Made by a program: the position numbers and the translations under genes. The notes beneath the pieces are model-generated. The model saw only the letters and a program-made list of their open reading frames with translations. It did no database searches and was not told the DNA's origin. Below are positions 19,740-56,600 of a stretch of 64,000 nucleotides of DNA, piece after piece. The stretch is from assembly GCF_910596095.1 (NCBI RefSeq), contig NC_056543.1, positions 25,306,542 to 25,370,541 on the forward strand, in the 5' to 3' direction. This DNA is from Thunnus maccoyii. Taxonomy: Eukaryota > Chordata > Actinopteri > Scombriformes > Scombridae. The first letter of the stretch is position 1. Each line of letters begins with the position of its first letter.

Positions 19740-22700
19740 AGGGATCCCAGATGACAAAACTGGCAAAGAGCTGTTCTCTTCTGTCTGGAGCTAACAAGCC
19801 CCTTTTTGCATCACTGACAACAGTCTTTTTGGCCTGCCAGTTAGTCAACTTTTCCACAGTTACTTAAATATTATTTCTGTATATCTCAAAAAGAGACGTT
19901 TATCTAAACTTAACAAATCTCAACAACCTGATGTGTCTGACATATTTATGTAAGATAAATGTAAACTCACAATGAACTCCCTTTCTCAGTAAAACCAAAT
20001 AAACGCTGTCATCAGGAGACACTCCTCTACTTGAACCTGATGTTCCAGTCTTGTTTCTATTAATTCAAGATTTCTTAATATTTCTCCTTAGTTCTTTTCC
20101 TAGAGCTTCTTTCTCATAATGCTTACTATAGTCAGGAATGTAGATGAATATGTTACATTTATGACTTTGACTCTTGTACTGACTACCATTCAAGAAGAAA
20201 TGACTACACATTCAACTAGATTTAAGATTTTACTTGGTGCCAAATGTTGAGCCTAAATTATATATTGTTTATATGCTGAGCATTTCAACTTATTCTACTG
20301 CTGCACTCAATAGTCACGCTGAGTAAGACTGTTGGCTTAATGCTAACATCTAACAGTTCCACTTTCCAATGGAAAATTCAAAGAGGAAGCCGTAACTAAA
20401 GGGTTTATAAATGGTTAGGGGAACTTTGAGGTTGCAAAGTTGTAAAACAAAATCCTTTTGACTTTTGTCTGTGTTTACCCTCCTCTTAGCTAACCTGCTT
20501 TGTCTGTTTAGTTCAATCTTTACTTTTTCTTTACTGAACTTAACCTTCATGGGTTTCTCATGTCCTTTAGTAATGATATTTTCTCTATTACTTTATTACA
20601 AACCACCAAATTTGCATTTGATGTCAGTACATCAATAATTCTCTTTAAAGAGTAACTTAACACCAAGCTGCTGTTGCACTGATCTCTCTGGTTGAAACTT
20701 TTAAGCCTGACTACGCCCCACCACACCCAGCATCAAAGCATGCTTTGTTGCCCCTGTAACCACACCCAGCAGTGATGTCACAGGGTCCCGCAGTACACCT
20801 TTATATCAGTGCAGCAAGATGACAAGATAAACCACAGGAGATCAGAAAAAACAAGATTTTTAGGGGGTGTCAACATACTCTTTACTAAAACTACTGTCGT
20901 CTTACCTTAAAAAAATCAATGAAATCTGGAATTGTAATAGTTATATTATTGAAAGGCACCTCATACTCTGTGGCTTTGTTCTTAAAAGTACTGTAAGTGG
21001 TCAAATAGTCTTCTGAATTAAAGACTGAGTTAAAAAGATGAATCAGGTTTGGCAGGAAGAGGAAAAAACACCAAAAGTATCTTTTCAACCAGGGAACCAC
21101 AAACATGTTCTTATTAATGGCTCCTTACTGATCTATAAAGCTTTAAGAAGTTATTAATCAACCATTAACAAAGCTATCTGTTACAGCTCACACAGTAAAT
21201 GTACAATAATATAATGTCTGTTTATTCATATGAGTGAGTCAGGTGACTGGGGAAAAATCACGTCTTGCTTATCAGCAGTTCCAGACCAAGTCTGTGAGGA
21301 TTTTTCTCCCCTTCATGTGTTGCTCTTGGCTGGATTGGCACTCAGGGTTGTTCCCTCCCTCCCTGTCCCAGAAAAAGGCCTGTCCTGCTGACTGGGCTGA
21401 AGGCCTGAGAGGTTTGATCCTGGTATCCAGTACTTGGCTCTCACCAAGTAAAGCCAGCATTCTCCTATGTTTAATGTGGGTTTCCTCGCTTCAGAGGAAA
21501 CAGCTTTTTGGCTGAACTCACAGGACCACCCCGTTCTCCCTTTATCTAGAAACCACTGCTTGAGATGGCTCCAATGATAAACAGCCACAGTGAAATCAGT
21601 CAGCAGAAGGACTGATGGATAAGAAACAGTTGGTCAGCATGTTGCAAACACAGCAATGTTCCTTGAGTTGTGACTTTTACTGGTATCTTTCTAAGATATT
21701 TGCTTTTCTCTGATCTGTGTTGTCAATGTGGTTTCTGTTGCCATGGTGAAATAGGTCTGAGGCACATCGCCATTCTGAAGTTGGTCGGCACGGAGCCGAC
21801 GGATATGGGCGGAGTGTTGGAACTCTATCCTATCAATGGTAAGAACTTTCTTATATAAAGTAATGTATATGTTTTTCAGGCATGTCTATGGCAAACACAC
21901 ACTGACACACACCTAATAGTCCTTGTCTAGTTGCTAAGACCATACCTACAGTTTACCAGTTTTCCTCAAGCAAAATCTTACCCCAGATCTCCCCTGCTTA
22001 CCCAAAACCAGAATCCTAATCGATCCAGAAATCCCCCTGCACAGGCCAGTGTTTCTGTGTCCCTGTTCTCATCATTGTTCCACCATATGGTAAAGAGAAT
22101 CTGAGCTCAAAGGTCTGCTTACTATTCCACCATGTCCCCATAGGAACCTCAAAGATTTGTTACTAACAGGGACAGTCTCCATACAATTTTACAGCTGCGT
22201 AACCATGCGTGCTGCTGTGACAGGGGACTCTTTATCAGACTTTACTTAGGAAAAAATAAACAGGAGTTATGCAAGACTGTAAAAACTAGAGCTGTTTCCA
22301 GGGGGCTTAAGTTGTTTAGGTTTCTGCTTTTGGCATTTGAGCTCAGCATGTGGAGGTACAGTAAATGTCAAATGATTCTACAAAGAAAAACATGTGCATT
22401 TTTTCTGCTGTAGAAGTTCTGTCTTAAATACTTCATTCCTAACTTGAATATCTGCACCATCCAGGAACTGCTACAGTGGAGCGTGAAGGACTGTCAGCCA
22501 CCCTGGTGAAAGACATGAGGAACTACTTCCAGGTCAGCCCAGAGTACTTCTCCATGCTGCTGGTCGGGAAGGACGGCAACGTTAAGTCCTGGTACCCTTC
22601 ACCCATGTGGTCCATGGCTATCATCTACGACCTGGTAGACTCTATGCAGCTACGCAGACAGGAGATGGCCATCCAGCAGTCACTTGGCATGCGCTGCCCT

Positions 22701-22787
22701 GAAGATGAGTACGGTGGCTATGGCTACCATCAGCACGGTTACGAACACGGTTACCAGGATGGCTATCACCAAGGCTATGGCTACTAA
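6709..22787 (+). CDS. ccdc80: Coiled-coil domain-containing protein 80 (CCDC80/URB/DRO1)
   Basis: Exons: 6709-7396, 7562-7759, 8606-9090, 9400-9747, 10972-11128, 14140-14276, 15705-15856, 16607-16710, 21755-21838, 22465-22787. All junctions are GT-AG and phases join to 891 residues (human about 950). The product is a secreted, matrix-associated protein linked in mammals to cell adhesion, adipocyte differentiation and growth suppression. A signal peptide covers residues 1 to about 19. Three copies of the CCDC80-type (P-DUDES) domain lie at about 138-292, 560-715 and 717-860, each opening with an arginine/leucine-rich strand (for example RRRLFIISAP). Between copies 1 and 2 are a threonine-rich linker (about 296-400) and a lysine-rich segment (about 475-545). 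The tail is rich in Tyr, Gly and His (HGYQDGYHQGYGY). The ATG at 6709 begins the signal peptide. Domain 3 through LRRQEMAIQQSLGMRCPEDEY is nearly identical to mammalian CCDC80, so the identification is firm. TAA is followed at once by TAG. Confidence 0.96.
7868..8302. repeat. Dispersed repeat in ccdc80 intron 2
   Basis: The segment contains the stretches CCCCAGTGCAATGGAGGTGA and GGAGGCAGAAATCTCAGAAA and ends in GGGTGAAGTGACCCTTTAA, an ending I recognise from short non-autonomous elements scattered through teleost genomes. The left limit is approximate. Confidence 0.5.
8683..8868 (+). repeat. ccdc80: ACN-triplet tract coding the Thr-rich linker of ccdc80
   Basis: In exon 3 the reading frame becomes a run of ACA/ACC/ACG/ACT codons broken by Arg, Ala, Lys and Pro. 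It encodes a Thr-rich, probably O-glycosylated and disordered linker. Human CCDC80 has a Thr/Pro-rich stretch at the same place, but the exact repeat differs. The long valine-rich frame on the other strand is its shadow. Confidence 0.85.
9970..10200 (+). repeat. Fragment of the GCTGCAACTAACGATTA-type repeat
   Basis: Ccdc80 intron 4 carries GTCAGAAAATTG, ACTTGTTTTGTCC and CCAAACATATTCAGTTTACTATC in order, the internal text of a very common teleost repeat that is also seen at 27690-28262 and 38289-38600. The ends are eroded. Confidence 0.6.
12560..12983. repeat. CA/GT microsatellites in ccdc80 intron 5
   Basis: A short CA tract lies at about 12560-12587 and a GT tract at 12947-12983. Between them, at about 12876-12905, is a GC-rich patch with ACGTCA and CCGCCCCCACCCGCG, resembling a CRE next to Sp/KLF boxes. 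The rest of this 3-kb intron shows nothing I can name up to 13849. Confidence 0.7.
13850..13995 (-). repeat. Hairpin plus SINE-like dispersed repeat
   Basis: Bases 13850-13865 and 13870-13885 are perfect 16-bp inverted repeats around a 4-base loop. They are followed by GACAGGAAATGAGGGGAGAG and text resembling the common teleost repeat whose minus strand carries a tRNA-like GGTTCGAATCC box, here decayed. It lies just upstream of ccdc80 exon 6. Confidence 0.6.
16790..17015 (+). repeat. Dispersed repeat in ccdc80 intron 8
   Basis: It begins with TTTAAAGATCAGTTCACCAAATT-like text and continues with CATTTCTTTAGCCATATAGTG and AATGCAGTGGAGGTG motifs, typical of short non-autonomous teleost elements. 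It ends about 100 bp before the larger element at 17111. Confidence 0.5.
17111..18100. mobile_element. Non-autonomous DNA transposon with 20-bp terminal inverted repeats
   Basis: The left end TTTAAATGGGACCTATTATG (17111-17130) matches the reverse complement of 18081-18100 at 19 of 20 positions. The 990-bp element carries no transposase frame. The TTTAAA at both ends is itself palindromic, so a TTAA or TTTAAA target duplication is possible but cannot be separated from the repeat. Internal text (GCCTGTCTCTTTAAGGCCCC-like) matches a dispersed teleost family. It lies inside ccdc80 intron 8. Confidence 0.85.
18560..18860. repeat. Possible dispersed repeat, GC-richer patch in ccdc80 intron 8
   Basis: The stretch is richer in CpG than its surroundings and includes a complete TGACGTCA site near 18688. 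It resembles repeat text seen in other fish introns, but I cannot define its ends. A second patch of this kind, CACACCCAGC-rich, lies at about 20640-20840. Confidence 0.35.
19641..19736. repeat. Long TG microsatellite
   Basis: An uninterrupted TG run covers 19663-19736 (37 units), preceded by an imperfect run from 19641. It lies in ccdc80 intron 8. Open frames of Cys/Val or His/Thr here are artefacts. Confidence 0.97.
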
Positions 22788-24980: not shown

Positions 24981-27900
24981 CTACAAAGACTCTTCCTCGG
25001 AATCACTGTCTGTGTTGGGCTTTGTCAGGAGCTCCAGCTCTTCCCCATCCTGCAACACAAAACACATGAAGAGCAAATCAGAATGAAATGTAGAAGTGGT
25101 GGAATCCAGTAGACAAAGCAGACACTGAGGTGCTTCTCACAATAATATTTAGTATTATCACCAACATCAACTTTCTAAATTGTTGTCAGATAGTGAAGAG
25201 GACAATGTAATGGGGAAATACCTTGCATATTAGAGCAGCAGCTGCTTAACAGTGACATGTTTTTGTTAGTGCTCTACCAAAGACACAAAGATCTGAAATC
25301 TGGTATTGTTGTATGCCACAAAGTCCTGCTAACTCCACAATAGTGTCTTCATAAATCCCCCATAGACATCCATTCAGTCTAATAGCTTCCTCTTTCAAAA
25401 TCCAATAGACTACATTGACCAAATGAAATTACATGAGGTAAGGCCGCAGCGTGCGCCTGAATGCTGTTTTCATAGCAGGGAATCAGGTTTCTGTCTCCAT
25501 TGAAGAAATTACATTACAGAGAAATGAGAGCCAAGTTTCCTACAGAGAACTTGGTATGTGTGTGGGAGGACAGGAAGGGGCTTTACATGGGGTTAGCCGA
25601 GTGACGCAGTGTTGGAAAAGGAGTGTGTGGGCTTGTGTTTGCGACTAGTGAAGATTTGGTGGTTTTTGTGGTTTGCTCCCTACCCCTCTGGACCTCTCGA
25701 ACACCTCTCCGTTGATGACCCGCAGTTTTTCCTGCTGAAGGCTGTATTCCAGGTCCTTGGGCCGGCTGGCGTTGTAGATAAAGATGGCCAGCAGGACCAT
25801 GGGAGCCTGGAGGAAGAAGTCCAGCGACGGGTGGAAGTCGAAGAGGAAAAGGGAGAGGGCGGTAACCAAAACAGTGGTGATCTGGCCCGTCAGCACATGG
25901 AACATGTTATCTCTGAATTTCAAGATGAAGGCCACAGATAAACCGAGAGAAGCTATGGAGAGAGATAGAAGAAAGAGTGTAAGTTCTTCAAATGCACGCT
26001 GCAGATATTATTATGAAGAAAAAGACTGTCCTCACTATATAAACAAAACACATACTGTAAGCACATTTTAATACCTTTCAATCCTTTCAATTAGTTTTTA
26101 CAAGAACTGTGGCCAAGATATAAACTAAGCAGGACTTTTTACAGTTGGAAAATAAACTTATCACTAAGGAAGCCAAAGTACATGATGCTGAAACTCTTTC
26201 TGAATTACCATTTTTAATTTTAAAAAGTCTCTGTACACTTGAATATACGACAGGTGCAGCGGAGGAAAGCACAACTCGCATAAAAATGAGAAAGACTCCC
26301 ACACACTGCCTCGCTTACTGCTGGAATATTGCATGCCAATTCTGCATTAAATCTTACAAATCTTCTTCAGTACTTATCCCCTTAATTTACATGTTGTCAT
26401 TTTCTATCTGTGATCTTTGAATTGTCTGGGGCAATATGGATGTTGCTATAATATTTTATGTGGGATAATATTATAAGATTTATGATTGATTGGAATTTCT
26501 GCCTTTGTGTTTTTCTATTCATTTCATTTTCTACTTTTCTAGTCTTTGCTACAGTAAGTGTCCCTCACTTACTAGCCTGGATGGTAATGTTTGCCATGCT
26601 TTGCTCATCAATTTGATTTATTTCTGTGGTCGTCTGATTGGATGATCAAGGCAGCTTCTACGTGTATATATGAAAGTGATTCTTACACATATACCTGATG
26701 AAGGTCAGACACACCAAAGAGTTGAAAGCTAATAAATATTCCAGCAGTAAGCAAAACAGTGTGCAGGAGTTTTCCTCACTTTTATTATTAGTTTTGTCAT
26801 GTTTGAGGTGATTTTTTTGTTTGGCTGACATACATACATGCTGATATCATTATATATATCTATATATCTACTAGCCTATATATCATTGTTATATCATAGG
26901 GAAAAATCTTGTGCAGGAAGTTGGGGTGGAAAGACATCAAAACTAAAACTTCCAACAGTCCACGTTGGTTTTTTTGTAAATATGTAGGTGATCATTCCAT
27001 ACCCAAAACCTTGATCATGATCCTTCCCTAACCTTCACTGAGTGGTTTCAGATGCTCAGGCTGAACCACAAGGGGATCAGGTAAGAAAACACTCAAATCA
27101 GTTCTTTTAGAAAACATTAGGAACTGCTATTACTCACCAGTGGCCAGCACCAGACCCAGGGAGTAGATGTTATGTCCGTGGAGGAGGCCACAGTGGATGG
27201 TGAGGCCTCGTGCCTCGCTTCCAAGCCCAAGGGTCAGACTATTAAATATCACACCAAAGGCATACCTACAACACCATGCAGCAAAGGAACCCAGATTAGA
27301 AGGGGAGACTCAAATTCATGCCTCGTCTGCCTTATTATTGATGTGATGAGTGAGCAGCTTCTCACAATTTACTGTTCTGGATGAAGATGCTCTCAGTGAG
27401 TTGGTCTCCTTCTTTGAGGATCTTCTCATTGTAGATGTTTGCCATGGCGGATATGAAACACTGGAGGAGGAGCAGGATGTGACCCACACCCAGAGATTTA
27501 AGCTTCTCTACTACCCTGTTCCTCCAGGCCTGACCGGGCAGGGACGACACCCATGATTCACTGGCACTGAGGAGGGAACAAACATACAGTATGAACAAAA
27601 GTAAATAGAACATATCTGTCTGATAATAAATGAACAACTGTTTTCGAAAGGCTATACTTTATGTAATGTGTGGCCCTTATCCTTATCACCTCAAGTAAGG
27701 ATTGCAACTTCAGCAGAATGTCGATGCTTGGTCAGATGCATGTTGACATCCAACCAACAGTCCAAAATCCAAAGATATTCAATTTGCTATCAAATGTGAC
27801 AAAGAAAAGCAGAAACTCTTCACATTTAAAAAGCTGGAATCAGTATATCCATGGCTTTTTGTTTTAAAAGTGATTTGAACAGTTAATCAATTATCAAAAT

Positions 27901-34045: not shown

Positions 34046-37000
34046 ATGGGGCTTTGCGTCTGGGCTGGAGCTCAGAGTCTCCTGCTCATCCTGGTTCTTC
34101 TGACTGCCCGCCATGTCAAAGCAGATGAGCCTCAACCGAGGGAGAGACACTATTACATCGCTGCTGTCGAGATAGACTGGAACTACTCTGGCAATGACAT
34201 ACAAAGGTAGGATACTGGTTGGAGTATTTATGATATTAAAGGACAAGAATTAGATAGTGTTAAATAATATCTTTCAACTCATTATTGGTTTATTAGTTAT
34301 TTTTTGGCAGTTCTGGAATAATTGACAATTTTACTGTTTTGTGTCACATTTTTCTCTCTTTATTTTTGTTACATTTTGTCATGTAAAATTCTTGTCTAAC
34401 ATTCTGATATTGAAGTTGTTTGTACCTTGTAAAAACAGTCCAGTCTGTTCTGGTTTTATTTCTCTGGCAGCCTGTTCGTCATCCTATGATAATATCAATA
34501 TTGCCATGACACACACACACACTCAGACACACACTGGATACTCACAGTAGTTGCGTCATATGAGAAAACTTGTGTCTTCATATCTTTAAGTCCATATCTT
34601 TTTGATATGAAGTTCTGTCTGTAGGGCATGGTGTCTTCCTGTGCGCTGATTCATGTTTTGTGTTTTTCCGCCATCCCTCAGGCCTGGTCCCACCTATAAG
34701 AAAGTGGTCTTTCGGGAGTATGAGAAAGGCTTCAGACAGGCTAAGACTCATCCCTCCTGGTTAGGTAAATGTTGCATACAGTTTACATCAACACACAGTC
34801 TGTCTGGCTCTGATTAAGAAACACATTTGCTAAATCCAGTTCAGTACCCACCCAGATATAGAAACCTACCTTTTGGAAGGAATTGAACTGTTGTTTCTGA
34901 GTAGGTTTCCTGAAAGGGATTATGTAATTTGGTGCTAATAACAGGAAAAATGTAGGTGTGTTCAACTGATACACATAGGAAGTGCCTGCTGAATTATAAA
35001 TAAATAAAACTGATTAAGTAACTACACAGAATATACAGACATATAAATTAAAGGAAAAACTTGAATAAAAGAGAAGAAAAATAATCAATAAAAATGCTTT
35101 CAATCAGGGCAGCAGCACTCTCCAACATCATCAAAACACCAGATGAGGGAATATCTTTTGGATGAGTGGTGTTATGCTACGGAATATTGAAGCAAGGAGA
35201 GAATGTGCATTTAAAGCTTTTATTTAGATTGTATGTTGGTTATAACGGTTACCTGTTTTGACCTCACAGGACTTTCATCAGGAAACGGATGCACTTAACC
35301 GCTGCATTCTTTTTGTATTTACTTTAGGTAGATAACTGTAAACAACTGTAAAACTTGAAAAACTCTCTCACATGTTATAACTACAGTTTTGCTCCCTGTT
35401 CAAATTCAAATAAGATTTATTGGCACGTCAGATCAGTATCCTATATTGCCAAAGAAGTACAGAAAATTATTATCATTGAAAGATGATTAGCAATGCAAAT
35501 ATCAACAATCATATCAAATACAATATAATAAAAGGCACTGAATATCAACATCATGGTGTCAGGTACTCTGCCACCATGTACTCTCTGTTTACGGTTAAAT
35601 AGAATTCTAATTTACTTTGTGATTTTGTGGTTTTATTCCAATATTTTACATAATTTTCTTTTTGTTTTGAGATGATTTGATTGGCCCAAATTATTTAATG
35701 TCTATCCTGAAACCATGGTGTGTGTGTGGGCAGAGCTTCAAGACCAGCTGGCAGAGGGGACTCTTACCTTTGTCCAACTTTTGGCACTGAAGGGCTTTGT
35801 ACTGTTAGGATTGGGGGTTGCTAGATTGGAGATGTTTATAAAATTTGATGGCTTGCTTTTGAATTTTAATTATTAAAGGGTATTGGCCAAGTTCTGCCCT
35901 GCATGCATTATCGGCTGTCTGTCTGTGAACTCTACAATTCTGCATGCAGGGCTTCCAGCGGATGTTTTTCCCATTTTGGAGGGTCTTGACTGGTTAATGG
36001 ACCCCATACTTCACCACCATATAATGTTATTTGGTCTATTACTTTTGAGTCAGGTCGTAATAGGAATGTCAGTCAAATTTTTTCTTTCAATGACGTAAAA
36101 CTGTTTCATTCTTACAAACTCTAATAAATCCACAGGTACTTCTGTACTATACTGTCTACCTCTGTTATATATTAATTTCTTTCTAGGAAGGTATTAGGAA
36201 ATAAATTACAACACCAGAAAGGCTAAATGTCATGTTTACTGCATTGGTGTACATTACACTATACTGTATGTGCTAATGGTGAAATTATATATCCTGGTCA
36301 ATGACAGTCAGTGAATCAACTAAAATAACACAGAAAGACAGTTTATGTTACTTCTCCCATGATGATGATGTACCAACACACAACAGTGCTATATATTCCA
36401 CACAAGCCTTTCTTTCTCTGCAGGTCTACTCGGACCCACGCTGAGGGCTGAGCAGGGGGAGACGATTGTCGTCACTTTCAGAAACATGGCGAACGGACCG
36501 TATAGCATCCACCCACATGGGATCGCTTACGGGAAACAGTCAGAGGGTGGGTTCCTGTTAATCCAGCTGCAGATGAATCTGACAGCTGTTGCAAACCTGA
36601 AGACACCAGTAACACAGTCTGTCTGTTAGGGTCACAGCTGGCAGTCATGATGTTACTCATTCTAATAATTACACAAGATTGGCCGACAAAACAAACAACT
36701 CTGTTTGTTTTTTTCTAAAATATTAACTAGGACAGGCAGATTATCAAACTAGACGGTACTAAAGTCCAACAGGAAGCATTGCTAAACCTTAGGAAATCAC
36801 TGTCTGTGTTCCTCTATATATAAAGAAGTAACAAATTGAGGAAATTGAGATTAAGCACTCCTTAATTTGCACTAAATTCGTAAGTCAGAGTGCAGAGGAA
36901 TTGGAAAATTAAAGAACAGCTTGCAGGAAACTCTTCATTACATCTTCATTATTTTGGGGACTTCAGAGGAATGTCATCACTCAGACCGCTACACAGCAAC

Positions 37001-40000
37001 AATATTTAATTAATTTAACCAAATTGTTGCTTTAACCATTCTTTATTCATCCATAATGCAATTATGTACAGTATGTACTGTATGTGAGACAATTTTTTTC
37101 CTATTCAAAGTAATTTCCTTTTTTTTCAGGAGCCAACTACTTCGACAACACATCGCAGAAAGAGAAAGAGGATGATGTTGTGCAGCCTAACAGTGAACAT
37201 GTTTACTACTGGGAGGTGACAGAAGATGTATCTCCACAGCCTGATGACCCGAATTGCCTCACCTACACCTATGTCTCCCACCAAAATGTGGTTGAGGACT
37301 ACAACTCAGGCCTCATCGGTACTTTGCTCATCTGCAAGGATGGTAAGCGGTAAAATCTGCCTGTGTTTCCAGTTTTGCTTGTAACGTGTTGATGGGGAAA
37401 AGCACAAAATATCACTTGCTGCTGCTCTGAAATTAACTGGTCATTACTTTTGATTGCTCTCTCTGTCTCTCTCTCTTTGCAGGCACTCTGGATGAGTCAG
37501 GGAAGCAGGCTGACTTCCACCAGGAGTTAGTGTTCCTCTTTGGGGTTTTTGACGAAAAAGAGAGCAAATATACACCAAAGGACCATGACATAGAGAACCA
37601 TGTAAAGTACACCATTAACGGATACACAAAGGGATCACTACCTGGTTAGTCAATCATTTTGTCACTCAATGTGAGTCAGACAATCAGCCAATCAGCCAGT
37701 CAGTTGATCAGATACCCTCAGATGTTTTGAAAAATAAGCTCTTACATTTACTCAAGTGTGTACAGAAGTATAATTTTTAGGTTCTTATACATTACTTAAC
37801 TATTTCCATTTTCTGCAATTTTTACTCGGCTGTATTTCAGAGAGAAATATTGTTGTTTATACTACATTAATATGACAGTTGTATTTAATAAGTGCTTTGC
37901 AGATAAAGAGTTTACATATAAATATATAAAACATGAGATGATAAAAATTTGATGGATTCCTACAGATTAAACTAACCAAAAGAGTAGAGTTGTTAAATTT
38001 CCTATAGCATTATCTGGACCTTATTTTATGGCAGTGGAAAGATAATGAATATTTTTGGTTTTCTGTTGATTGACAAATCAATTAATGTACTAATCATTTA
38101 AGCCCTAATTAAAACAGTATATTAGGGCATCTCAGACTTAGTTCTGGTTAATAGGTTAACCACTGTTCTATGTAAAGTTGCAAGTAACCATGGCAACAAC
38201 GCTGATGCTTCACACTACCACTGGATAAACTGACTACAAACACACTTTAAACAAACACACAAAATGGACGATGACTGAGGTTCAGCCCAGTTTATTTTTG
38301 ATTGGAAAATATATGGCTGAAATGAACAAATATTTTTAAATAATCTCTTGAATTTACTTTGATTAATCATTTAATCTGTAAATTGTCAGAAAATAGAGAA
38401 AAAGCCCAACGTGACATTTTCAAATAGCTTGTTGTCAGATGGACAGTATAAATCTCAAAGATATTACATTTAAAATTATATAACCCAAAAAGCAGAAAAA
38501 ACACACTTTTTTGACTTGCAGCCAGCAAATGTTTGGCATTTTCAAAAAAGCAAAATTCACAAATTACTTTTCTGTTGATTGAGTAACTTATCAACTAATT
38601 GTGTCAGTGCAAGGGAAGTGCACACTTATTGAAGTGTCCTGATGTGAGAAATAACAGCAATCTTTGCCTCCAACTTGTCCATTATGTTCTGGGTTTGAGG
38701 ACACCTCATTATAGCTTAATGTTTCAACAATTTAACAGGGCCATTCTTCATAATAAGATCTTACTATTGATACTTTATATAATGACAGTACTTCCATACT
38801 TTTACTTTGGAACACAAGACTTCTACTAATGGAGCATTTTCCCGTTGTGGTATGCTACTTTCAATTATATAAATGATATGGTTACATCATCACTGTTATA
38901 CACATATATGGTGAGTGGTACACTCCATGGTGTATACAGTACAGTCAGTTCTGCATACACAAAACAATGCAAATGTAAAATACTCAAGGTGCCCAACAGT
39001 GTGGTCTTTTCTTTACAGATGTCAGTGTGTGTGCTCATTCCTCTGTGAGCCTGCATCTAGTGGGTATGAGCTCAGAGCCTGAGGTGTTCTCAGTGCATAT
39101 GAATGGGCAGGTGCTGCAGCAGATGGGGCATAAAATTTCATCAGTGGGTCTGATCAGTGGTTCCTCCACCACTGCCAGCATGGTAGCTCTCCACGCAGGC
39201 CGCTGGCTGTTGTCCTCACACATCACCAAGCACATAGAAGGTAAGTGTGTCTCTACTCATTGAGATTAATTATATCCACCATCCACCATACACAGATAGT
39301 TTTTACCAACATAGCTAAATTTACAAGAAAAAAAATGTCTTTCCACCTTTTCAGCTGGCATGCATGGCTTCGTGGATGTGAAGAAGTGTGATGCCTTCAC
39401 AGCACCCCGGCGAACGATGACGATTGCGCAACAACGTGAAAGCAGGGTGTGGACATACTACATAGCTGCTCAGGAAATTCTTTGGGACTATGCACCCAAC
39501 ACGCATGAACACATAGACGAGTAAGCAAAATTTACAGAAACATTTTTAGCAGTGTTTAAAAACACCAGTGCCACACAGCTTGAAGTGCAGTGTTGAGGCT
39601 GTGTGGTGCCAGTGTTTTAAATGGTCTTGTTTGTTTATGGGAGTTATATACCAATGTCTCAAAATGAATATGAATTGCATTAACGCTTTTAAATAAAACC
39701 TCTGATCTTTTTGTGTAGGGACTACAAGCTCCTTTACCTGAAACAGTCATCAAGACGCATAGGTGGGAAGTACAAGAAAGCAGTGTACAGACTGTACAAA
39801 AACGAGTCATTCACTGAATTGTCAGAGACTAAGCAAAGGAGACATGAGCTTGGTATCTTGGGTCCAGTGATCAGAGCGCAAATCAGAGATGTTATCAAGG
39901 TAAGACCATATTCACATCAAATCATATTATATAGCACCTTGTGAGCAAAATTGTTATTCAAAGTTCTTCACGTAACACAATCTATTGGTTATAGAAACAC

Positions 40001-43000
40001 AAGAACAAAGAAAGCAGAATACAGTAAGAGAAAAAGCCAAAAAGCTTTGCTCTGTAAATGTTAAGCTAAAAGAGTTTGTCTTAAGGTTCGTTTTAAAACT
40101 GTGGATCGATTCTGCTGACCGACAAGACTACAGACTCTAAAAGCTTGTTCGTTGTAGGTATTGTTGCTAGCTAATGTATACTGGGTGAACATTGTTTCCC
40201 TTTTCATACATAGTTCCCCAATTTTAGAGCAATCCTGCGGGACAATGATCCTAAACATATGACAAAGTCAACCAGAGGTCTTTATGACCAAATAGTGAAA
40301 TATTTTTGACTTGAAACGTCAGACACCAGATCTCAATCCAACTGAACACGTGTGTTCCTTGCTAAAGAACAAGACTGAAAGTTAAAAGTGTCTGACTTAA
40401 TTTAAGTTTGTGCATTCATTATTACATTTTTGGATTTCTATTTATAAAAATGACTAGAGTTCCTACTGTGTTCATTTGCTGCAGATACAAACACAATTAA
40501 ATTAAAGCTGTCAGCACTTTGTGTCAGTTTTACTTCAAATCAATGACTGTGATTGTGTCACTATAACACTTTCACACTGGACTGTAGGTTTTGTACAATC
40601 ATTTAACATTGTTTAGACACTGTGTGCCCTCACCAACCTGCCCTTTCATAGGTTGTTTTTAAGAACATGGCCTCCAGGCCCTACAGCATCTATCCACATG
40701 GAATGACAATAGAAAAGTCAGAGGAGGGGGCCAGCTACCCAGCAGGAGGTACTGTGTCTCTCTTCACAAACAAATTGAACACTTTGAAGGTGGTGGACTG
40801 CCCACTCTGGTTTTATTATATAAAATAACTACAATAAAATAAATGAAGAATTTCTCAATGTGGTTGCCAGGCAATCAATCCCATAGTGTTAAACCAGGTG
40901 AGACATACACGTATGTGTGGAGAGTGGTTGAGGAGGATGAGCCTTTGGATGGGGATTCCCGATGTCTCACGCGAATGTATCACAGTGCAGTGGACACAGC
41001 GCGTGACATCGCCTCAGGACTGATTGGACCAATCCTCATCTGCAAGAGTCAGTCTCTCAATGTCAGGAATGTGCAGGTAAAAGATTCTACATCATTTTCT
41101 TTAGTTAATAAGACACATTTTCAGAATGAATAATGCAGAGTGAGTTGGTTACATACATTGTTAAATAGCTACTTGAGAGAATTTGGAGAAAAAGGAAAAA
41201 AAATGGTGAATTTAATGTTTGTAGCAAAATTGTTTTTTCCTTTCTTTTTGTGGCTTGAAGTTAATGTGAGGAACATTCTAAAATATATTTTGTTGCATCT
41301 TATAGATTAACATTTAGTGTTATAATAGATTTTTTTTTTGAGTATGTGTTACTGAAAGATTTCTTGTATTTTTTTATGGTCGACCTGTAATGGTTGTGTA
41401 ACACTATGTGAGATGACCAAAATGTTGAAACAATACAATACAATAAAAGAAAATAAAAGTTAACCAACTACTGTAATGACATTTATTTTGTATTACATTT
41501 GTACAATTTGATACTTTCCTACTGTTTTTCTTAGTCTTAGTTAAATTTTAACAATCAAAAACATTGTAAATTTATGTTGTAGATTTAAAACTGAATGCAG
41601 ATCTCTGTTCGTTTCTACAGCTGAAAGCAGACAAGGAGCAGCATGCCATGTTTGCTGTGTTCGATGAAAACAAGAGCTGGTACCTGGATGACAACATTCG
41701 GCAGTTTTGTGATCAATCCAAAATCAACAAGGCAGACCCTGACTTTTACAAGTACAATGTCATGCACAGTAAGTTGCACAAATTGAATTGAGGCTGATAA
41801 AAACACCTCTTCCTAAAATATATAATATCTTCAATCTATTATATGTTCATAATATTAATTAATTGCCTGCATGACTGCCTCTCAGATGAAATGACTACTA
41901 TTCATGTAAATGTCCTAACAGCAATAAACGGTTATGCGTTTGAGAGTGGCCCGCGCCTGGGCTTCTGCAATGGTGAGGTTGCAACATGGCATGTGTCCAG
42001 CATTGGAGCACAGGACTACATCCAGACATCTACATTCTATGGCCACACATTTGACCTGAATGGGCGGACAGAAGACTTTCTCAGCCTCTACCCCATGACT
42101 GGAGAGACCATCACAATGTACATGGACAACATTGGTCAGTCAGGGCTGACAATACCTTTTTTATGTCATAATGTTTATTGTATATCCATATATTCAATTT
42201 GTAGGGTGACTATCAATAGGTAATACCAAAATCTCAAACTTTTGCAAATGAGAAAGTGATAGCTGCTTAGTTTCCAAGAGTCTTTTTGATTTTTGTGTCT
42301 CTCTTGAAACAGGTGTCTGGCTCCTGGCTTCCCTGAATTCCCACGAGACGACCAAAGGAATGCGCTTAAAGTTTCAGGATGTTGAGTGCTTTCGTGACTA
42401 TGAATATGAGTACAGTGACTATGAAAGATCAAGCTCAGCAGTACACAAAGAATTCACTGTGTGGGATGCTCCAAGCTTGGATGATATCAAGAAGGAAGAG
42501 GAGAAGCCGGCACCCATGATAACAGCAGCGGTGGCGGATCATGACACGTATGCGTATGCAGACGAATTAGGTCTCAGGACTCTGAAGAACCAGTCTAGCA
42601 GCTCAGGTGTGGAGCTGCTGGACCTGTCTTTCCTGGACTATGATTTTGTTGATGAGCTTGACGGAGATACGAATATCACCCTTAATTTCACCAAGAATAC
42701 AACATCATTCTTTGACAATTCTTTTGTGTCTAAATTAGAGAACACAACCAATTATAGCCCTGATGTATTACTAAAGAATAACAATATAACTGTTGTTTCA
42801 AATCTTGATAATGTCAAAGCATCTGAGACAGAGAACACCACACTTCACAATGATAAGGCACCATTAATGGTTGGAAATGTATCCACAGAGACGACCAATC
42901 TTAATGTAACATTACCAGGAAATTTAACTTCCATCTTGGGTGGTGATAACCAGACTTCGGTGGGCACGAACTCAGTGGAAGAATTTGAGGAGAGACTCAA

Positions 43001-46000
43001 CAGAGGAGATGTGTTCTCCTACTCTGTACCTCTATCACCCTCCAGCACTGACAATCTCAACAATACAACAGAGGAATATGTCGCTTCTCTGTCAAGCAGT
43101 ACAAAAAAGGAAGATGTGAATGACACAGCAGCAAACCATCTTAACATGTCAGCAGATGGAAAAAAACAATCAATGAAGATTCCAATGGCTGAAGAGGTGA
43201 ACATCAGCAGCTTAGACAGAAGCAATTCGACAGGTAACACAACCAGTGTCAATGACACACTGATCACCACAACAGAGGTGAACTATGGACATCAAATGAA
43301 TTCCTCTGAAATTGTGAATTCCAGCCTTGAAAATGTGACACATATTTTGCATAAAACTGTGCACTCACAAAATGTCCCAATGAATATATCCAAATCAAGT
43401 TCTGAGAGTTGGGAGAATGTCACTGCTCTTCTTGACCGCATATCCTCTGAAGAAAGTTTCTCCAATGAGACTATGGTTTCAGGTAACCTGTCGCTCTCCG
43501 GTCATCCAGTTAACGAAAGCAGCTCTGAGGAGCTAAGTGCCTCAGACAGCAGTGAAGAAGTGTTTATCTACCTTAAAGAAAACAATACAGAGGTGATTAA
43601 AACCACCTCCCTCAAAAAACAGGGCCACAACTGGACTTATGAGATAACTCACCAAACGGTACCGATGGAGATCCCTGACCACATCTTAAAGTACTTAGGG
43701 AAGGAGGCCCCAGCGCCTGAAGGACCTAAGGTTAGGAAGGTGAACCAACGACACAGGCCCCAGAAGGGCCAAGGCATGAAAACAAGGAAGAGGAAGGAAT
43801 ACAAGCCTCAGGCCAGGAGTGGTTTACCATTCTCTCCTCGTGGATTAAATCCAGGCATGACCCCACGTGGGACACGACCCAATTCACCGCAACCTGTCAC
43901 TGATGAGGAGGAGCTCATTAACATGCCCGTGGTCATCGGTGTGCCCCGGCCTGATTTCAGTGACTATGAGCTGTATGTTCCTGGCGCTGAGCCAGATCAT
44001 CTAGATGTGGATGAGCAACATGTGAGAGCAAATGAATATGAGTATGTGAGCTACAAAGACCCCTACAGCAGTCATGAAGACATCAAGAATCTCAGTCTGG
44101 ATGACACCACCAAATACTACTTGGACTTCCACTCAGGCCCCGATGTCAAGATTTACTTTATCTCTGCAGAGGAGGTTGAGTGGGACTACGCTGGCTACGG
44201 ACAGAGGTAAGCTCAGAGATAGCAGTAAGATAAGCTTGTATGACATGACATGATGTAACTATTCAGAATAACTGGAAAATTGTCTAGCAAGCGCACATCC
44301 GAACATATGCAAAGCTGAAAGTAGGTCCTCTGCTGTCACCAAAGGAGGCAAGACAAGTCAGAACCAAACAGCAGAAAAACCAAGTTCACCAAGGCGGTTT
44401 TCCGAAGTTACATGGATGGTCACTTCAGAACACCTGATATCCGAGGTGAGATGGATGAGCATCTAGGCATCCTGGGGCCTGTCATCAAGGCAGAAGTTGG
44501 GCAAACCATCATGGTAAGACTGCCAGCACCTGTTAAAAGCCATAATCTGTCTTGCTCTTCTGGAATTTTACCTTTTCTGATCTGTGCTCATTTTTAGATG
44601 TTTTACATGAATTGTAGCATTTACATCTACAGTCTGATTGTTGCCTTATATAAACAACACATTACAGTAATAGTGTGAAAAGCATTATTGGTGAGCTTTA
44701 AAGGTGAAGGCTGATATTCACATGTCTCTATAGTAAATATAAGATTACAGCCAGCAATGAGTTAGCTTAGCTTAGTACAAAGGCTGGAAACAGGGGAAAA
44801 CATCTAGCCTGGATCTGTCCAGAAGTAACAAAATCTGTCTACCAGCTCCTCTAAAGCTCACTAATTAACATTTTACATTTGGGTTGTTTAATCTGTACAT
44901 AAATAAAAGTGAGCTAACCAGCTGGAAGTGATTCAAATCAAATCATAGACTGTAAAAAATAATGGATGTAGCCACCTTGACATCACCATTGGTTTGGACT
45001 ATGGTGGACTGTTTTGAAGCCTCGAGTTTACATCATGGATGTATTATAAGAGCTAGATAATGGACCGAAAATGGCGCCCATTCAGTTCAATAAGAATTGC
45101 TTGGCTGGTGCATACACCAAAAAAAGTTTATAGCTTCCAGGTTTGCTTCCGCATTGTGTGGCCCACTGAATATGTGCAGTAGTGTTTCCCCCACTGGCCC
45201 CTCCCGCGAGTTCCCGCTCGGCCCATAGACTTTACATTGTGATGATGTCACAGATTTTAGATCTCTTTTCTCATCACCATAATAGAAAGAGTCATGATTG
45301 ACCTTGTTTGCAGTTAGAAATGTCCTGTCAACAGTTTTACAGATGTCTCTTTTACAATGGTGGTCTATGGGGAAAATGGTTTTTGGGCCACAGGGGGATT
45401 TTTCACTGCAATACGAGAATGAGCCACTAGGAAAAATTGGCTGCAAGGCTGAGCAGTGTAGCTCTACCCAGCTCTTATCATGGATGTGTGCTTATAATAC
45501 ATCCATGGTTTGCATTTTGACTGTTGCCATATTGGATTTTTGGAGCCAGAAGTGACCATATTTGGATGAGAGGGTGGAGCTGACCCTAACACTAACTGCT
45601 AATTGCTAGCTTGGTTAGCACAGTGCATTTACAGTCTATGGTTAACTGTGATAATGCTAGTTTTCACTGCAAAAAACATGTATAAAACCATTAAAACAAA
45701 ATGTACTTACCCGAAAAACTTAACATCCGATTCCTTAGAGGGTCTTTTAGTATAACCAAATGCTTTTTAGGCAAAATTTTCAAATCAAAATTTTACAATT
45801 AACTTTCATGAACCAAAAACACACTCTAATAGCCACGCTCTAACATCCATATCCTGCTTTATCATCTATTTTACTCTAAATGGGATAAATGCATAATTTA
45901 CAAAATGAACATCACACTGTACTGAAGAAGACTTGAAACTAGCAATTGAGACTATAAACTCATTAGGAAACTGTTTACTGAGGTAAATAATCAAGTGAGA

Positions 46001-49000
46001 AGTAGTCATTTTCTCATGGACTTCCATATAATCAGACTTCTTTTTGGAGCCAGTGGTGTTGCTCACTGCTGGCCATTGGAGAGAATGCAGGTTTAAGTTA
46101 CTTCTACATTGGCTTCATTTTTCAGAAACGGAACTACAAGCTTGCTTCAAATTTACTGTCTTCTCATCTAACTCTTGACAAGAAAACGAATAAGCATATT
46201 TCCTAAATTGTCAAACTATTCCTTTAAAGCCACATAACCACAGAAAATCTCTTTCTATCTTGTAGGTGGTGTTCAGGAACAATGCCAACCGTCCGTACTC
46301 CTTACATCCAAATGGGGTTTCCTATACCAAGCTGACAGAAGGTCTGTCCTATGAGGATGACTCCAAGCATTGGTACAAATATGACAATGAGATTCAACCT
46401 AATACCACCTTCACATATATCTGGAAGGTCCATTCAGTGGTTGGGCCAATGTCAGATGAGTCTGACTGTCGGACCTGGGCCTACTATTCAGGTGTTAATC
46501 CCGTGAGTACTTTGTAAATGTGAAATTAGTTAAATTTAAGAAAATTATGAACTAAATATAATTTAGTATGACAGGTATTGTAGAAATGCTATTTATGAAT
46601 GTAAATTAAAGCCGCTTGATGTAGACTTGAATTTCTGACTGTGGTGCCCCAACGTTTGAGCATCAAAAAGACACAGTGGGACACAGATGTATGGATTGAA
46701 AAAAAACACACAGACGGCACTCATTTTCTCCATGTTTCTTATGCCATAATAATAATAATTTGAAAGATGCTTTTACACATATAATCGATCAAATTCTGTT
46801 AAATCAATTAACATGAACTATTTAGTTGGAGTGAGCAACACAGGATGTATTCACATTTTTAAGAACTAATATTGAACCTAGAATCTACTGTCTTAGGAAA
46901 GGGATATCCACTCAGGCTTGATTGGTCCTTTACTGGTGTGTCGAGAGGGCACTTTGGACAAGGAGTTGCCTGACACGAGAGAGTTCACACTGCTTTTCAT
47001 GACCTTTGATGAGTCGCAGAGCTGGTACTACGAGACGAACCGTGAGATGATCCAGAGGAAAAGCAGATGGAGAGTTTCGAACTCCAACTTAAAGGAGAAC
47101 CTCAAGTTCCATTGTAATGCATCACACACCTTAATCTATTCTGGTTAAAGTGATCCTCCATCCAAAATCTTCTATTGAATATGATACGGAAGAATTATAT
47201 AAAATGCTAATTTAAATAAATCCATTGTTGGTAATATCACATTGTTGCAAAGATGTTTCTGTAGAATTCAATCAGTTGTAATATCTTTTTCTCCATGAAT
47301 TCAAGACTTATTCAGTTACAGAACAAAAAGTCACTTGAAATGCTGATAAAGATGTCTTTTTGTCTGATGTTTCCACAGCCATCAATGGCATTATACATAA
47401 CCTAAAGGGCCTGAGGATGTACACTAAACAACTTGTGTCCTGGCACCTGATCAACATGGGTTCTCCCAGAGACTTTCAGAGTGTCCACTTCCACGGACAG
47501 ACGTTCCTCCACAAGAAGTCCACCAGCTACAGACATGCCGTCTATCCACTGCTGCCTGGTAAGCAACATAATGTCTGTTAAATACGTCCAGAACAACATC
47601 TTGGAGATTTAGAGATACTAACTGTATCCAATGCCAACAACTTAATGGAGCAAGTATTTCTTACTGTACCAAATTGCTTTTGCAGGAAGCTTTGCTACTC
47701 TTGAGATGTATCCGTCCAAGCCTGGGCTGTGGCAGCTGGAGACAGAAGTTGGTTTCAACCAACAGAAGGGCATGCAGACCCTCTTCCTGGTTGTAGATGA
47801 TGGTACAAACTAGTTGAAAAAACAGATTGCACCATTTAGAGAACGACTTTGTAACTATACTGACATGCTGTTATGTTGTGTTTTCATACTGAGACATTGC
47901 TTGTATGTGTTCTTCAAGAGTGCTACCGCCCACTGGGTCTACAATCAGGCAGTGTGAAAGACGACCAGATCACAGCAATCAACACTAGAGGTAGCCATAC
48001 CTCCTCCTGTGTGCATCCATCTGTTTTGGCAACAGATACACTGTGGTCCTACTGCAATCACAATGACTTGTGAAATTATTGCATCATATTTGCAGTAAAG
48101 CTCTATAAACAAAGATGTCACCAGAATAATGACAGTTTTTCCATCTTTGAAGGATTCTGGGAGCCCCACCTTGCCAGATTGCACAGTCAAGGTAAATACA
48201 ACGCATGGAGCACAGAGCAGAACGACAGTTGGATTCAGGTATGTGCAAGAGGTGTGATAAGTGTGTGTATGTGTGTGTGTACATGTGCATTTCCTTTTTA
48301 TGAGAATGCAATCTGCTACCTGTGGAATCCCCCCGGTACAGGTGGACTTTCAGCGGCCAGTTGTGATCAGTCAGGTGGCCACCCAGGGAGCCAAGCAGCT
48401 ATTCTATTCCCAGTATGTGGTCAATTACCATATCTCCTACAGCAACGACCGCCGGAAATGGATCTTCTACAAGGGCAACAGCAGGCACCCCAGGAAGGTA
48501 CGGGAAATTTGATCACTTAAAGAGACAATGCAAACAGCTACAATCTAATTTAGAGGCGTTCGCTCACCTCTTTATTTCTCTCTGTCTGCATCCCTTGCTG
48601 TTTCACCAGGTGTTTGATGGGAACCAGGAAGCCTATGAGACAAGGAGAAACACCTTCTTTCCTCCTGTGATTGCACGGTTTATTAGGCTCCACCCACTCA
48701 ACTGGTACAGTGCGGCCACAGTCCGCATGGAGTTCTACGGCTGTGAGCTCGATGGTAAGACGTTACATGTGTGGATATGTACAAGACAGAATGTAAGTCA
48801 AAGAAAGCTGGAGACTGGAGTTCCTGTAAATGTTACATTTCTAATCTCCTGCCTCAGGTTGCTCAGTGCCTCTGGGGATGGAGGGCAGACTGATAGAAGA
48901 CAAACGCATCACTGCCAGCTCCACAGCCACCAGCTGGTATTCGGGACCCTGGAAACCCTCCCTTGCACGCCTCAATAAACAAGGCACTATCAACGCATGG

Positions 49001-49635
49001 CAAGCTAAGGTACTTATACTGACTGATTGATATCACAGGTGAAAATTAATCCATTCAAATGTAAATAAGAGAAAATAAGAGTAAATAAATAAAATTTTAA
49101 GATAAATAACAATTTAAAATAAAGCACCCTAATTCCTTTAGTAGTTCATATAAATGCGTACAAACCAGTTATTTCTCTCACTCTGCTCTCTTTTCTGCAG
49201 TATAATGACATGAACCAGTGGCTTCAGGTGGAGTTGCCCCAAATAAAAAAGATCACAGGTATCGTAACACAGGGAGCCAAGTCTCTGGGGAGAGAGATGT
49301 ATGTCATCTCCTACACTCTGGAGTACAGCAATGATGGGACACACTGGAACAAGTACACAGATGATGAGTGCATTGAATCCAAGGTAAATATTTTCATGTA
49401 CCAGTGACCTCTGAAGTGGAATTTCTTTGACAGTAGTTGAGAAGTGATTCTAAACTATTTCCTTCACTCTTTCTCTCATCAAATCTAGACATTCATTGGG
49501 AATACAGACAACAACGAGCATGTGAAGAACTACATCTACCCTCCCATTTTCTCTCGTTTCATCCGAATCATCCCTAAAAGCTGGATGGGCTCCATCACCA
49601 TGAGAATAGAGCTACTAGGCTGTGACTTTGAGTGA
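34046..49635 (+). CDS. f5: Coagulation factor V
   Basis: Twenty-five coding exons, the same number as human F5, join to about 1909 residues (human 2224). Factor V is a secreted plasma procofactor; thrombin converts it to factor Va, which binds factor Xa on phospholipid to form prothrombinase, and activated protein C inactivates it. A signal peptide spans residues 1 to about 26. Domain order is A1-A2-B-A3-C1-C2, and exon coordinates are given in the entries per domain. Factor V rather than VIII is indicated by the long run [20 protein letters not shown], by [21 protein letters not shown] at the C terminus, and by the basic and acidic B-domain elements. The start ATG at 34046 opens a clear signal peptide; the stop is TGA at 49633-49635. 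The protein is shorter than human because the B domain is shorter. Confidence 0.97.
35400..36180. repeat. Dispersed repeats in f5 intron 2
   Basis: AAATTCAAATAAGATTTATTGGCA at the start of this stretch is typical of a teleost LINE or SINE end on the minus strand. The text following, with two TTCTGCCCTGCATGC-like motifs in inverted orientation (about 35893 and 35941), looks like a second unclassified element. Limits are approximate. Confidence 0.4.
37735..38870 (-). repeat. Repeat mosaic in f5 intron 5
   Basis: Pieces of the AAGTAAAAGTAC-type repeat (about 37735-37880 and 38740-38870, minus orientation) flank a copy of the GCTGCAACTAACGATTA-type repeat (about 38289-38600, with GTCAGAAAATAGAGAAAAAG). 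The order suggests the second family inserted into the first. Confidence 0.55.
39355..42134 (+). other. f5: f5 exons 7-12: A1-A2 linker and A2 domain
   Basis: Coding exons: 39355-39520, 39719-39899, 40652-40748, 40871-41076, 41621-41768, 41922-42134. They encode residues 322-658. The linker after Cys333 carries Arg340 and Arg341; A2 starts near [17 protein letters not shown] (about 353). Arg535 in SLNVRNVQ is the position of human Arg506, the activated-protein-C site changed in factor V Leiden; its neighbour on the C-terminal side is Asn here and Gly in human. The run [14 protein letters not shown] is identical to human. Confidence 0.93.
40238..40349 (+). pseudogene. Tc1-like transposase remnant in f5 intron 8
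   Basis: Bases 40238-40258 read RDNDPKH and continue [11 protein letters not shown], as in the Tc1 transposase motif around its second catalytic Asp. About 70 bases on, in another frame, 40326-40349 read PDLNPTEH, the motif before the last catalytic residue. A stop codon and frameshift lie between, so it is a dead fragment. No terminal repeats are visible. Confidence 0.85.
42313..44206 (+). other. f5: f5 exon 13: end of A2, whole B domain, start of A3
   Basis: This 1894-base exon encodes residues 659-1290, matching the giant B-domain exon of F5 and F8. The A2 end has an acidic, Tyr-rich tail ([10 protein letters not shown]). Arg747 in ELGLR/TLKN aligns with human thrombin site Arg709. The B domain (about 748-1262) holds about 30 Asn-X-Ser/Thr sequons but none of the human nine-residue repeats. 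A basic segment at about 1131-1171 ([11 protein letters not shown], then FSPR with Arg1168 matching human Arg1018) precedes an acidic Tyr-rich segment at about 1206-1244 ([13 protein letters not shown]). At the human Arg1545 position the fish reads KYYLDF, with Asp1263. A3 starts at [14 protein letters not shown]. Confidence 0.93.
44696..46230. repeat. Composite repeat in f5 intron 14
   Basis: The left part begins CTTTAAAGGTGAAGG and contains GAGTTAGCTTAGCTTAGTAC and GGCTGGAAACAGGGG. The right part ends GTCAAACTATTCCTTTAAAG. Both belong to one common teleost repeat whose ends read CTTTAAAGGAATAG, in opposite orientations. Another element is inserted between (44944-45640). The remaining text up to 46230 includes AGTTAGATGAGAAGA on the minus strand, as expected for this family. 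Confidence 0.65.
44944..45640. mobile_element. 697-bp element with CATAGACTGTAAA terminal inverted repeats
   Basis: CATAGACTGTAAA at 44944-44956 is the exact reverse complement of 45628-45640. Internal text such as AATGGATGTAGCCACCTTGA and TTGAAGCCTCGAGTTTACAT is known from many teleost genomes. No transposase frame is present; open frames inside it are fortuitous. It sits inside the composite repeat of f5 intron 14. Confidence 0.85.
47919..48754 (+). other. f5: f5 exons 19-22: C1 discoidin domain
   Basis: Coding exons: 47919-47990, 48153-48238, 48342-48497, 48610-48754. They encode residues about 1597-1749, from [11 protein letters not shown] to [11 protein letters not shown], one F5/8 type C (discoidin) domain. 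Such domains bind phosphatidylserine membranes. The loop that carries Tyr-Leu in human C1 (GAKHYLKS) reads GAKQLFYS here, keeping a hydrophobic pair. Confidence 0.92.
48858..49635 (+). other. f5: f5 exons 23-25: C2 discoidin domain and stop
   Basis: Coding exons: 48858-49009, 49201-49383, 49489-49635. They encode residues about 1750-1909, from [20 protein letters not shown] to IELLGCDFE. The human Trp-Trp pair of the membrane-binding spike (KKSWWGDYW) reads ATSWYSGPW here, so one Trp is kept and the other is Tyr. Confidence 0.93.
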
Positions 49636-53639: not shown

Positions 53640-56600
53640 ATGAAGTCTCCAAAACTCGCACCTCAAGGTAAATGTGAGATGTTTTTCCATCATGTCTTAT
53701 TTGTTTGTTTGTAGGCTGTTTATGGTTTATCACTATAGGTTCATATTCCCATCACATTTCGATAGGGACACTACAATAAAATTATATTCAAATTCTAATA
53801 GGAACTATTACAGTGACTTTATTATGACCCTGTACTTCATGTTTGTGTGTTTGTTTGTTTTTCCTGCAGCGAAGTTCACCAAAGAGGAGGACCTGAACGA
53901 CGTGCTGTGCGAGTTCGACGCGGTGATCGAAGACTTCACGTCCCCGGTAGAGAAGCGGCACTTCAGGTACGACGAGCACCTGCAGACCATGAAGAGGAGG
54001 AGCTGCGCCAGCGTCAGCGACAGCGGCATCAGCGACTCAGAGAGTAAGTTAGGACTTAGTTGGAGATTAATTATTAACTGTATATTCAGCAGCTTTGGGG
54101 AGCTCTGTCCTGTAGGTTTGCTATATGATGATTTACAAATGTGACAACCAAAATATTGGCAACTTTTCTCTTTGGACTATTTACAACTTGTTATAATCTA
54201 TATCTTGATAAAATAATGTGGACCACATAGTCACTACAATTATATCATATAAATCAGACAGTAGCGCAATAAAAGGTCCTCAATTTGTGAAAACCTTGAA
54301 CTGACACCTGAGACTCCAGAATGGAGATCAGGCACTATGGTAATTAAATACAGTAGTTATTTTTTTTCTCCGCAACTATACTTCTCAGTCATCTCTAACT
54401 GATGATGATCTGCCCACTTTACTTTAAGGAAAAGTCCTAAGTAGTCAGTCATATCAGTGCCCTTTTTATCAGGAACTTGTTAACTTTGCTTCAGTTGTGA
54501 TAGTCTGTTTCCCACATTAGTCTTGCCTCTTGTTTAGTATCTTATCATCTGCAATCAAGAGGGCAGCTGGAGTGACTGGCACACATGCTTGTACGCTCAC
54601 ACGCACAATTACACATGATGAGAGAGATAAAGAGAGAGACAGAGAAATTTTTAATCATGGTGCAGAGGCTCTGAGGTTAGATTAAGCTACTGCTGCATAT
54701 TTTGGCACACCTGCCCCCATATTGTGGCTTCTCCTCTCAAGTTTTACTGCCATTCATTACTATATTACTCTACCATACAGTGCTATAGAGGTCTGCTTCC
54801 CCAGCTGCGGAGCTGGCCTGAGGCTGGCTCTCACCCAAATGGGATAGCCTCATATAGCTGACATTTAGGGAAAAGTATGCTTCAGGTCCCCATGAGCTAA
54901 GATAGTTTCCCAAACACATGTCAGTGGGTTGGGACTTCCATGGGAAGATGTGCTAATGTCTTTATAGTCTTGGGTTTTCTGGAAAGGCTGTCTGTGAAAC
55001 CATTTAAGAGCAGAAAGAGGATGTCCAATTAACAAGACCTCCCTGCTGCATGCATGATAGATTCCAGAGAAAGATTATCAGGCGCTAGTGCTTTCTAAAA
55101 TTTCATGTTTTTTTTTTCTTTGTGATCAAAGTTTGGTAATTGCATAATAACTGAGGCTCCAGTTGTTTTGTCAGCATATCTTCAATTTGACCAGTTCAGC
55201 TGGAATTTTTGTAATTATTACCACATCACCACTAAGGGTCTTGCAGCAAGCACCCCCAGTGATGAAAACAGCAGGAAGGTGTTTGACCTGTGTCTGCGGT
55301 ACTGAGCTTGTTGATTTGCTGACGGGATCAGATTCCTGCATGAGCTCTGTCCTCTCCATGGCAGTCTAATGAAGAGGGACCTGTCCCACGCAGGGACGAC
55401 CCATTGTGTTGCAGCCTGATGGATGGATGGACTGTTGAAGGCACAGATAAATGACGGAAACTGTGCAGAGTCTGAGAGATGCACCCTACGGAGCGTGCGT
55501 GTGTGAGTGAGGGAGAGTTACATTTTGGAGAGCAGAAAAAGAAAGCTGAGAGAAATGAGGAGGTTTCATGTCCAAATCAAATGCTGCAAATGTGTGCCTG
55601 GGTGCTCCCCGTTGTGTGTGGCGTCTCCTATCTCACGCTGTGTGTTCAGTGCTGAGTGGTGGGAGTTGTACGGGTCAGAGAGGGGGGAGTAAATAAGTGG
55701 TTGACATCTGAGACGCTGTTAAGGGCCGCTGGAGCTCTACAGAGTGGAGTGAAATAGATGTAAGTGCTGCACAATATTCCTTTTCTCACACGTACTCACT
55801 GCATACTCAGATATCATTATCAGGAAGATTGACATTTCCACCAAGCTGGTTAAGTATGTCAATGACAAAAAACGCTGCTTTTAACAAATTAAGGCAGACA
55901 GACAAGTCAAATACTATCTTGTAGTACTGGAAATCTCTTTCTTCTTTACATTTCTTTACCAGACAAACAAATGGCACATGGGAGGCAGAAACATTACCCC
56001 TGCACTTGTATCAGGCTTTAAACACATTGGAGGTAAATCTTGTTTAAGAGTTGACTCCAGAGACATCTCTGCCCAGGCCAACCTGTTATACTGCTGTGAC
56101 TAGCTGCCACAATGGAGGTTTAGCAGCTTAGTTATGGTTACATGTGGTATTTTTTGCTCTTGAGTCGTCCGGTGAAGCAAAGCAGAAGCTGCTGGAAATG
56201 CAGACAAGGTGTCAGCGTTGGAGTTGGAGTATAGTTTTTAACTCCAGAAACTTATGCTGTGAGCGTGACATGTGTTTGTGTGTATACAAATGTCAGTTTG
56301 TGCAAATACAAGCACATGCATGTGTGTGACAGCCCATAGTGGAAGGGTATCATTAGAGGAGAATGCAGTGATTACAAGCTGAAGTCGTTCCACTGACAGA
56401 TCAAAAATGGGCATTTTCTGTGTGTTTGTGTGAGTACACTGAAAAGGGAACATTTATTTAATCTAATTTGTCTGTCTCTCTTTTTCCATCAGGTGCAGAG
56501 TCGCTCAACAGAAACAGCTTCAGCTTCAGCGATGAGAGGCTGAACTCCCCTACCACCACCTCACCTCCTCTTATGTCACCAAAACGTGAGTTGAAATTGT

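Follow-up and report, generated by a model that had tools for sequence, protein, structure and literature searches.

The f5 gene and its surroundings

The stretch of DNA analysed, hereafter the window, comprises 64,000 nucleotides (C11:25306542-25370541) of a genome that was searched in its 782 Mb and 54 contigs. It contains the complete gene of coagulation factor V (FV), f5, whose 25 coding exons, bounded by AG acceptors and GT donors, are joined in one reading frame with a single terminal stop and encode a protein of 1909 aa. Exon 13 (AG...GT), which finishes with two bases of a split Arg codon, carries the region discussed below, and its end gave a single match when searched across the genome. 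The features of the gene are the following, with the basis of each assignment in brackets.

34046..49635, forward strand: f5 (25 spliced exons in frame and homology)
42313..44206, forward strand: f5 exon 13, with the end of A2, the B domain and the first A3 residues (phmmer and splicing)
42567..42578, forward strand: LGLR747/TLKN, counterpart of the human Arg709 thrombin site (aligned over human LGIR)
43728..43817, forward strand: basic segment, probable counterpart of the basic region (13 of its 30 residues are K or R; composition and position)
43830..43841, forward strand: FSPR1168/GLNP, probable counterpart of the human Arg1018 thrombin site (position and likeness to the human motif LSPR)
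43857..43868, forward strand: MTPR1177/GTRP, extra thrombin-like site (spliced sequence)
43962..44111, forward strand: acidic region 2 (AR2), counterpart of human 1493-1537 (phmmer alignment)
44025..44027, forward strand: Arg1230 (EQHVR/ANEY), the last Arg before A3, within AR2 (spliced sequence)
44124..44126, forward strand: Asp1263, a GAC codon in the column of human Arg1545 (phmmer, splicing and codon check)
44148..44150, forward strand: Lys1271, the sole Lys or Arg from Asp1263 to A3 (spliced sequence)
44154..44189, forward strand: start of A3 (phmmer and splicing)

The domain order is A1-A2-B-A3-C1-C2, as deduced from Pfam for A1 and the C domains, from PDB searches for A2 and A3, and from the order of the spliced exons. 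Pfam, in a search that left out A2 and A3, assigned parts of A1 to the multicopper oxidases and the end of the protein to F5/8 type C domains; it recognised nothing in exon 13. Compared with PDB chains extending from A1 to C2, the A3 query scored 700.6-713.6 bits against FV and 626.4-636.4 against factor VIII (FVIII), and the A2 query 707.5-713.5 and 617.1-634.7 bits, respectively, all being whole-sequence scores. The encoded protein is closer to FV than to FVIII and is a member of the factor V family.

Elsewhere in the window, the open frames at 6697-9756, where tandem repeats at 8668-8855 produce a Thr-rich stretch, and at 22443-22784 resemble genes of the ccdc80 type. Open frames at 25648-27658 on the reverse strand resemble slc35a5, which would make f5 a neighbour of slc35a5 and ccdc80. 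The open frame at 53644-54141 resembles rgcc. No Rfam family matched the whole window at the gathering score.

The B domain and the light-chain junction

The B domain, as delimited here, has 517 residues, against 836 for human 710-1545. Two of the elements expected of an FV in this region are recognised by alignment, namely the thrombin site LGLR747/T, which lies over human LGIR, and AR2, which aligns with its human counterpart. The equivalence of the basic segment and of the Arg1168 site that it precedes with the human basic region and the Arg1018 site is drawn from position and composition, since a PDB search with the 95 residues spanning both found no match at E values up to 10; FSPR1168/G resembles LSPR, the motif of human Arg1018. 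The preliminary description, whose residue numbers 747, 1168, 1230 and 1263 are all correct in the spliced protein, had stated that both upstream thrombin sites keep their Arg. This is borne out by alignment for Arg747; for Arg1168 it is probable from its position. A second thrombin-like site, MTPR1177/GTRP, is found nine residues past the Arg1018 counterpart.

The third element, the thrombin site that corresponds to human Arg1545, is absent. In phmmer alignments with PDB chains of human FV, the human WYLR lies over the fish YYLD, the human residue being numbered 1545 by counting from position 1480 of the 7kve chain, and the alignment together with the spliced gene confirms the Asp (Asp1263, codon GAC) that had been described in place of the Arg. 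The elapid FV homologue 4bxs aligns ungapped with the fish junction across 30 columns, with identity in 13, and the Arg of its YLR motif falls on Asp1263. The claimed length difference of one residue up to A3 is found against human FV but not against the elapid protein. Counted by eye, the scissile Arg is separated from the YYI/YFI of A3 by 8 residues in human FV, human FVIII and the FVIII of this fish; this spacing points to Phe1264 in fish FV and the elapid one, of 9 residues, to Asp1263, so that no placement of the gap rescues the site, both residues being non-basic. From residue 1231 to A3, fish FV is devoid of Arg, which agrees with the earlier identification of Arg1230, inside AR2, as the last Arg before A3, and where the other proteins have several Arg and Lys residues after the cut, fish FV has a single Lys (1271). 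The fish protein remains a homologue of FV, whereas the claim that it is activated by three cuts, as in mammals, fails.

The FVIII gene of the same genome provides a control. The A3 search detected A-domain loci on C11 (f5), C7, C8 and C13, of which the C8 locus (about 18962-18976 kb) is f8: its A3 piece scored 443.4-468.6 bits against FVIII (five sequences from A1 to C2) and 433.9-437.3 bits against FV (three such sequences). The A1-A2 linker of the fish FVIII keeps QVQAR/SNR and its A2-B junction reads INPR/SSR, which we take, by position, to be the equivalents of Arg372 and Arg740. Its light-chain junction, homologous to that of FV at the B/A3 boundary, is VDPR/SRGTRYRNYYIAAEE. Against human FV the match begins with the light-chain Arg, at FV position 1545; against full-length FVIII (12jp) it begins two residues before this Arg, at 1687, and runs ungapped from there, which places the Arg at position 1689 of human FVIII. 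Unlike FV, the FVIII of this fish thus has Arg at all three thrombin sites, which confines the loss to factor V. An Arg occupies the light-chain position in human FV, elapid FV and human FVIII and therefore looks ancestral; with two FV outgroups and FVIII as a basis, and one fish sampled, the parsimonious reading is that the lineage leading to this FV lost it. The end of exon 13 found no relatives among viral contigs, and among genome contigs it gave 38 pattern matches, 4 of them encoding relatives and none a fish sequence. These four all lie on bacterial MAG contigs, match only 19-24 residues at the start of A3 and are useless for the junction.

An artefact of sequence, assembly or annotation, or an alternative splice giving back the Arg, would explain the Asp otherwise, and the observation does come from one assembly alone. 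The codon GAC, however, is 2 changes away from the Arg codon CGC and 3 from each of the remaining five, the homology around the junction is in one frame on both sides, and the gene is intact over its 25 exons. A frame shift restoring the Arg is rejected, as the other two frames have no homology. The exon 13/14 junction is ordinary. Within exon 13, no AGGTRAG donor was found; a looser consensus gives 2 weak donor-like sites (43232 and 43481) and a simple consensus 3 acceptor-like sites (43045, 43509 and 44169), which offer some room for an internal splice. Only 44169 lies near the junction and its use would delete the first A3 residues; as far as they were read, none of these sites puts an Arg ahead of an intact A3. 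Since at least two substitutions separate GAC from any Arg codon and exons 13 and 14 are joined in the ordinary way, a base error and mis-splicing are both unlikely, and we regard an artefact as very improbable. For this genome, the thrombin P1 arginine is shown to be genuinely absent at the light-chain junction, in a factor-V-specific manner.

Proposed activation of an FV devoid of the light-chain arginine

In human FV, according to PMC7948760, cleavage at 709 and 1018 suffices to expose AR2 to TFPI-alpha and gives the cofactor-like FVAR2, and cleavage at 1545 releases AR2 and ends the binding of TFPI-alpha; it is through the Arg1545 cut that human FVa escapes both AR2 and TFPI-alpha. The same source gives for an FV-short protein carrying Gln at both 709 and 1545 a specific activity of 324 units/nmol, compared with 325 for FVa, which falls to 58 in the presence of the TFPI-alpha tail fragment (PMC7948760). 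This FVa-like activity of the Gln709/Gln1545 protein indicates that the 1545 cut is unnecessary once the basic region is gone.

For the fish protein, the preliminary description had left three options: activation at another site, by another protease, or with the acidic segment kept on the light chain. Four Arg residues lie from 1177 to A3 (1177, 1180, 1204 and 1230), and since 1180 and 1204 each precede Pro, 1177 and 1230 are left. The light-chain cut might have moved to Arg1230 (EQHVR/ANEY), where thrombin or factor Xa would split AR2, end the autoinhibition and produce a light chain extended at its N-terminus. The site has Val at P2, Ala at P1' and acidic surroundings; it also has Glu at P3', which is unfavourable, it failed a simple sequence filter, and the AR2 stretch in which it lies faces a gap in the alignment with human FV. 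Its weak motif is nevertheless not dismissible, because human Arg1545 is itself described as a poor minimal site rescued by an acidic upstream region (PMC4482499). On balance we consider a displacement to Arg1230 rather unlikely. We judge it less plausible still that another, hypothetical protease cuts at Lys1271, two residues ahead of the A3 start, or at Lys1259, just before the P1 column, although either cut would make the light chain almost as long as the human one. Both thrombin and factor Xa have a strong preference for Arg.

The sequence instead favours the third of these options, the acidic segment kept on the light chain, because the two upstream Arg sites persist together with AR2, and the stretch from AR2 to A3 is free of Arg. 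The model that we propose combines a genuine, FV-specific loss of the Arg with an activation in two cuts, and we hold it, as a whole, to be evenly balanced. The cleavage by thrombin of Arg747 and of Arg1168 (or Arg1177) would activate fish FV and release the segment that contains the basic stretch, and AR2 would remain on the A3-C1-C2 chain as its N-terminal part. Activation would end in an FVAR2-like cofactor, working in prothrombinase, which a basic ligand, either a tail like that of TFPI-alpha or the fragment set free, could still switch off. Against this two-cut model, the basic stretch and Arg1168 are without a PDB match, Arg1230 or a Lys could be cut, the scan described below found no third Kunitz exon or basic tail of TFPI-1, the expected regulator, and the fragment, once released, might bind AR2 again and reduce the activity, a possibility raised in PMC7948760.

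More tentatively, the fully activated FV of this fish, and perhaps of a wider fish group, could be the FVAR2 form itself, with AR2 as a permanent part; prothrombinase could then be switched off at any stage by a basic ligand, the third cut, by which human FVa becomes immune to TFPI-alpha, having been lost. The domain order, AR2 and the Arg at both upstream thrombin positions (that of 1018 by position and motif) are common to human and fish FV, which differ in the column of Arg1545, occupied by Asp in the fish. FVAR2 and the Gln1545 FV-short have AR2 on the light chain and the basic region gone, as expected in the fish; the human forms are transient or engineered, whereas the fish form would be germ-line encoded (PMC7948760). 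The elapid venom FV homologue (4bxs) shares with fish FV the spacing from the P1 column to A3 but keeps the Arg at the site, and its B domain is described as very short and without a basic region (PMC2994417).

The in vivo relevance of the control of FVAR2 forms by TFPI-alpha is described as still to be established (PMC7948760). A vertebrate FV without Arg at 1545 would be a natural mutant for this question. Fish, and zebrafish above all, serve as clotting models, for which it matters whether fish share the mammalian activation route. The part of the literature that was searched contained no statement on Arg1545 in fish; the loss may already be known elsewhere.

TFPI and other Kunitz loci

A Kunitz family search of the genome gave 51 matches, of which 30 were made into loci. 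Two TFPI-1-like exons, K1 and K2, lie at C11:7577835 and C11:7587923 (L042 and L043). A crude scan of C11 up to 7626000 revealed nothing convincing as a third TFPI-1 Kunitz exon or a basic tail. A search with the flounder peptide for the TFPI-1 basic tail gave no match, an empty answer that carries no weight. Flounder TFPI-1 ends in a basic tail (PMC7905887), and the failure to find one in this genome may reflect either the limits of the scan or a true absence. On C15 there is a tfpi2-like gene whose basic tail matches flounder TP26 at 11 of 18 residues. Three further Kunitz exons, at C10:1609365, 1686528 and 1766509 (L033-L035), have an identical printed translation and a spacing of about 80 kb, and are perhaps the product of a recent segmental duplication.
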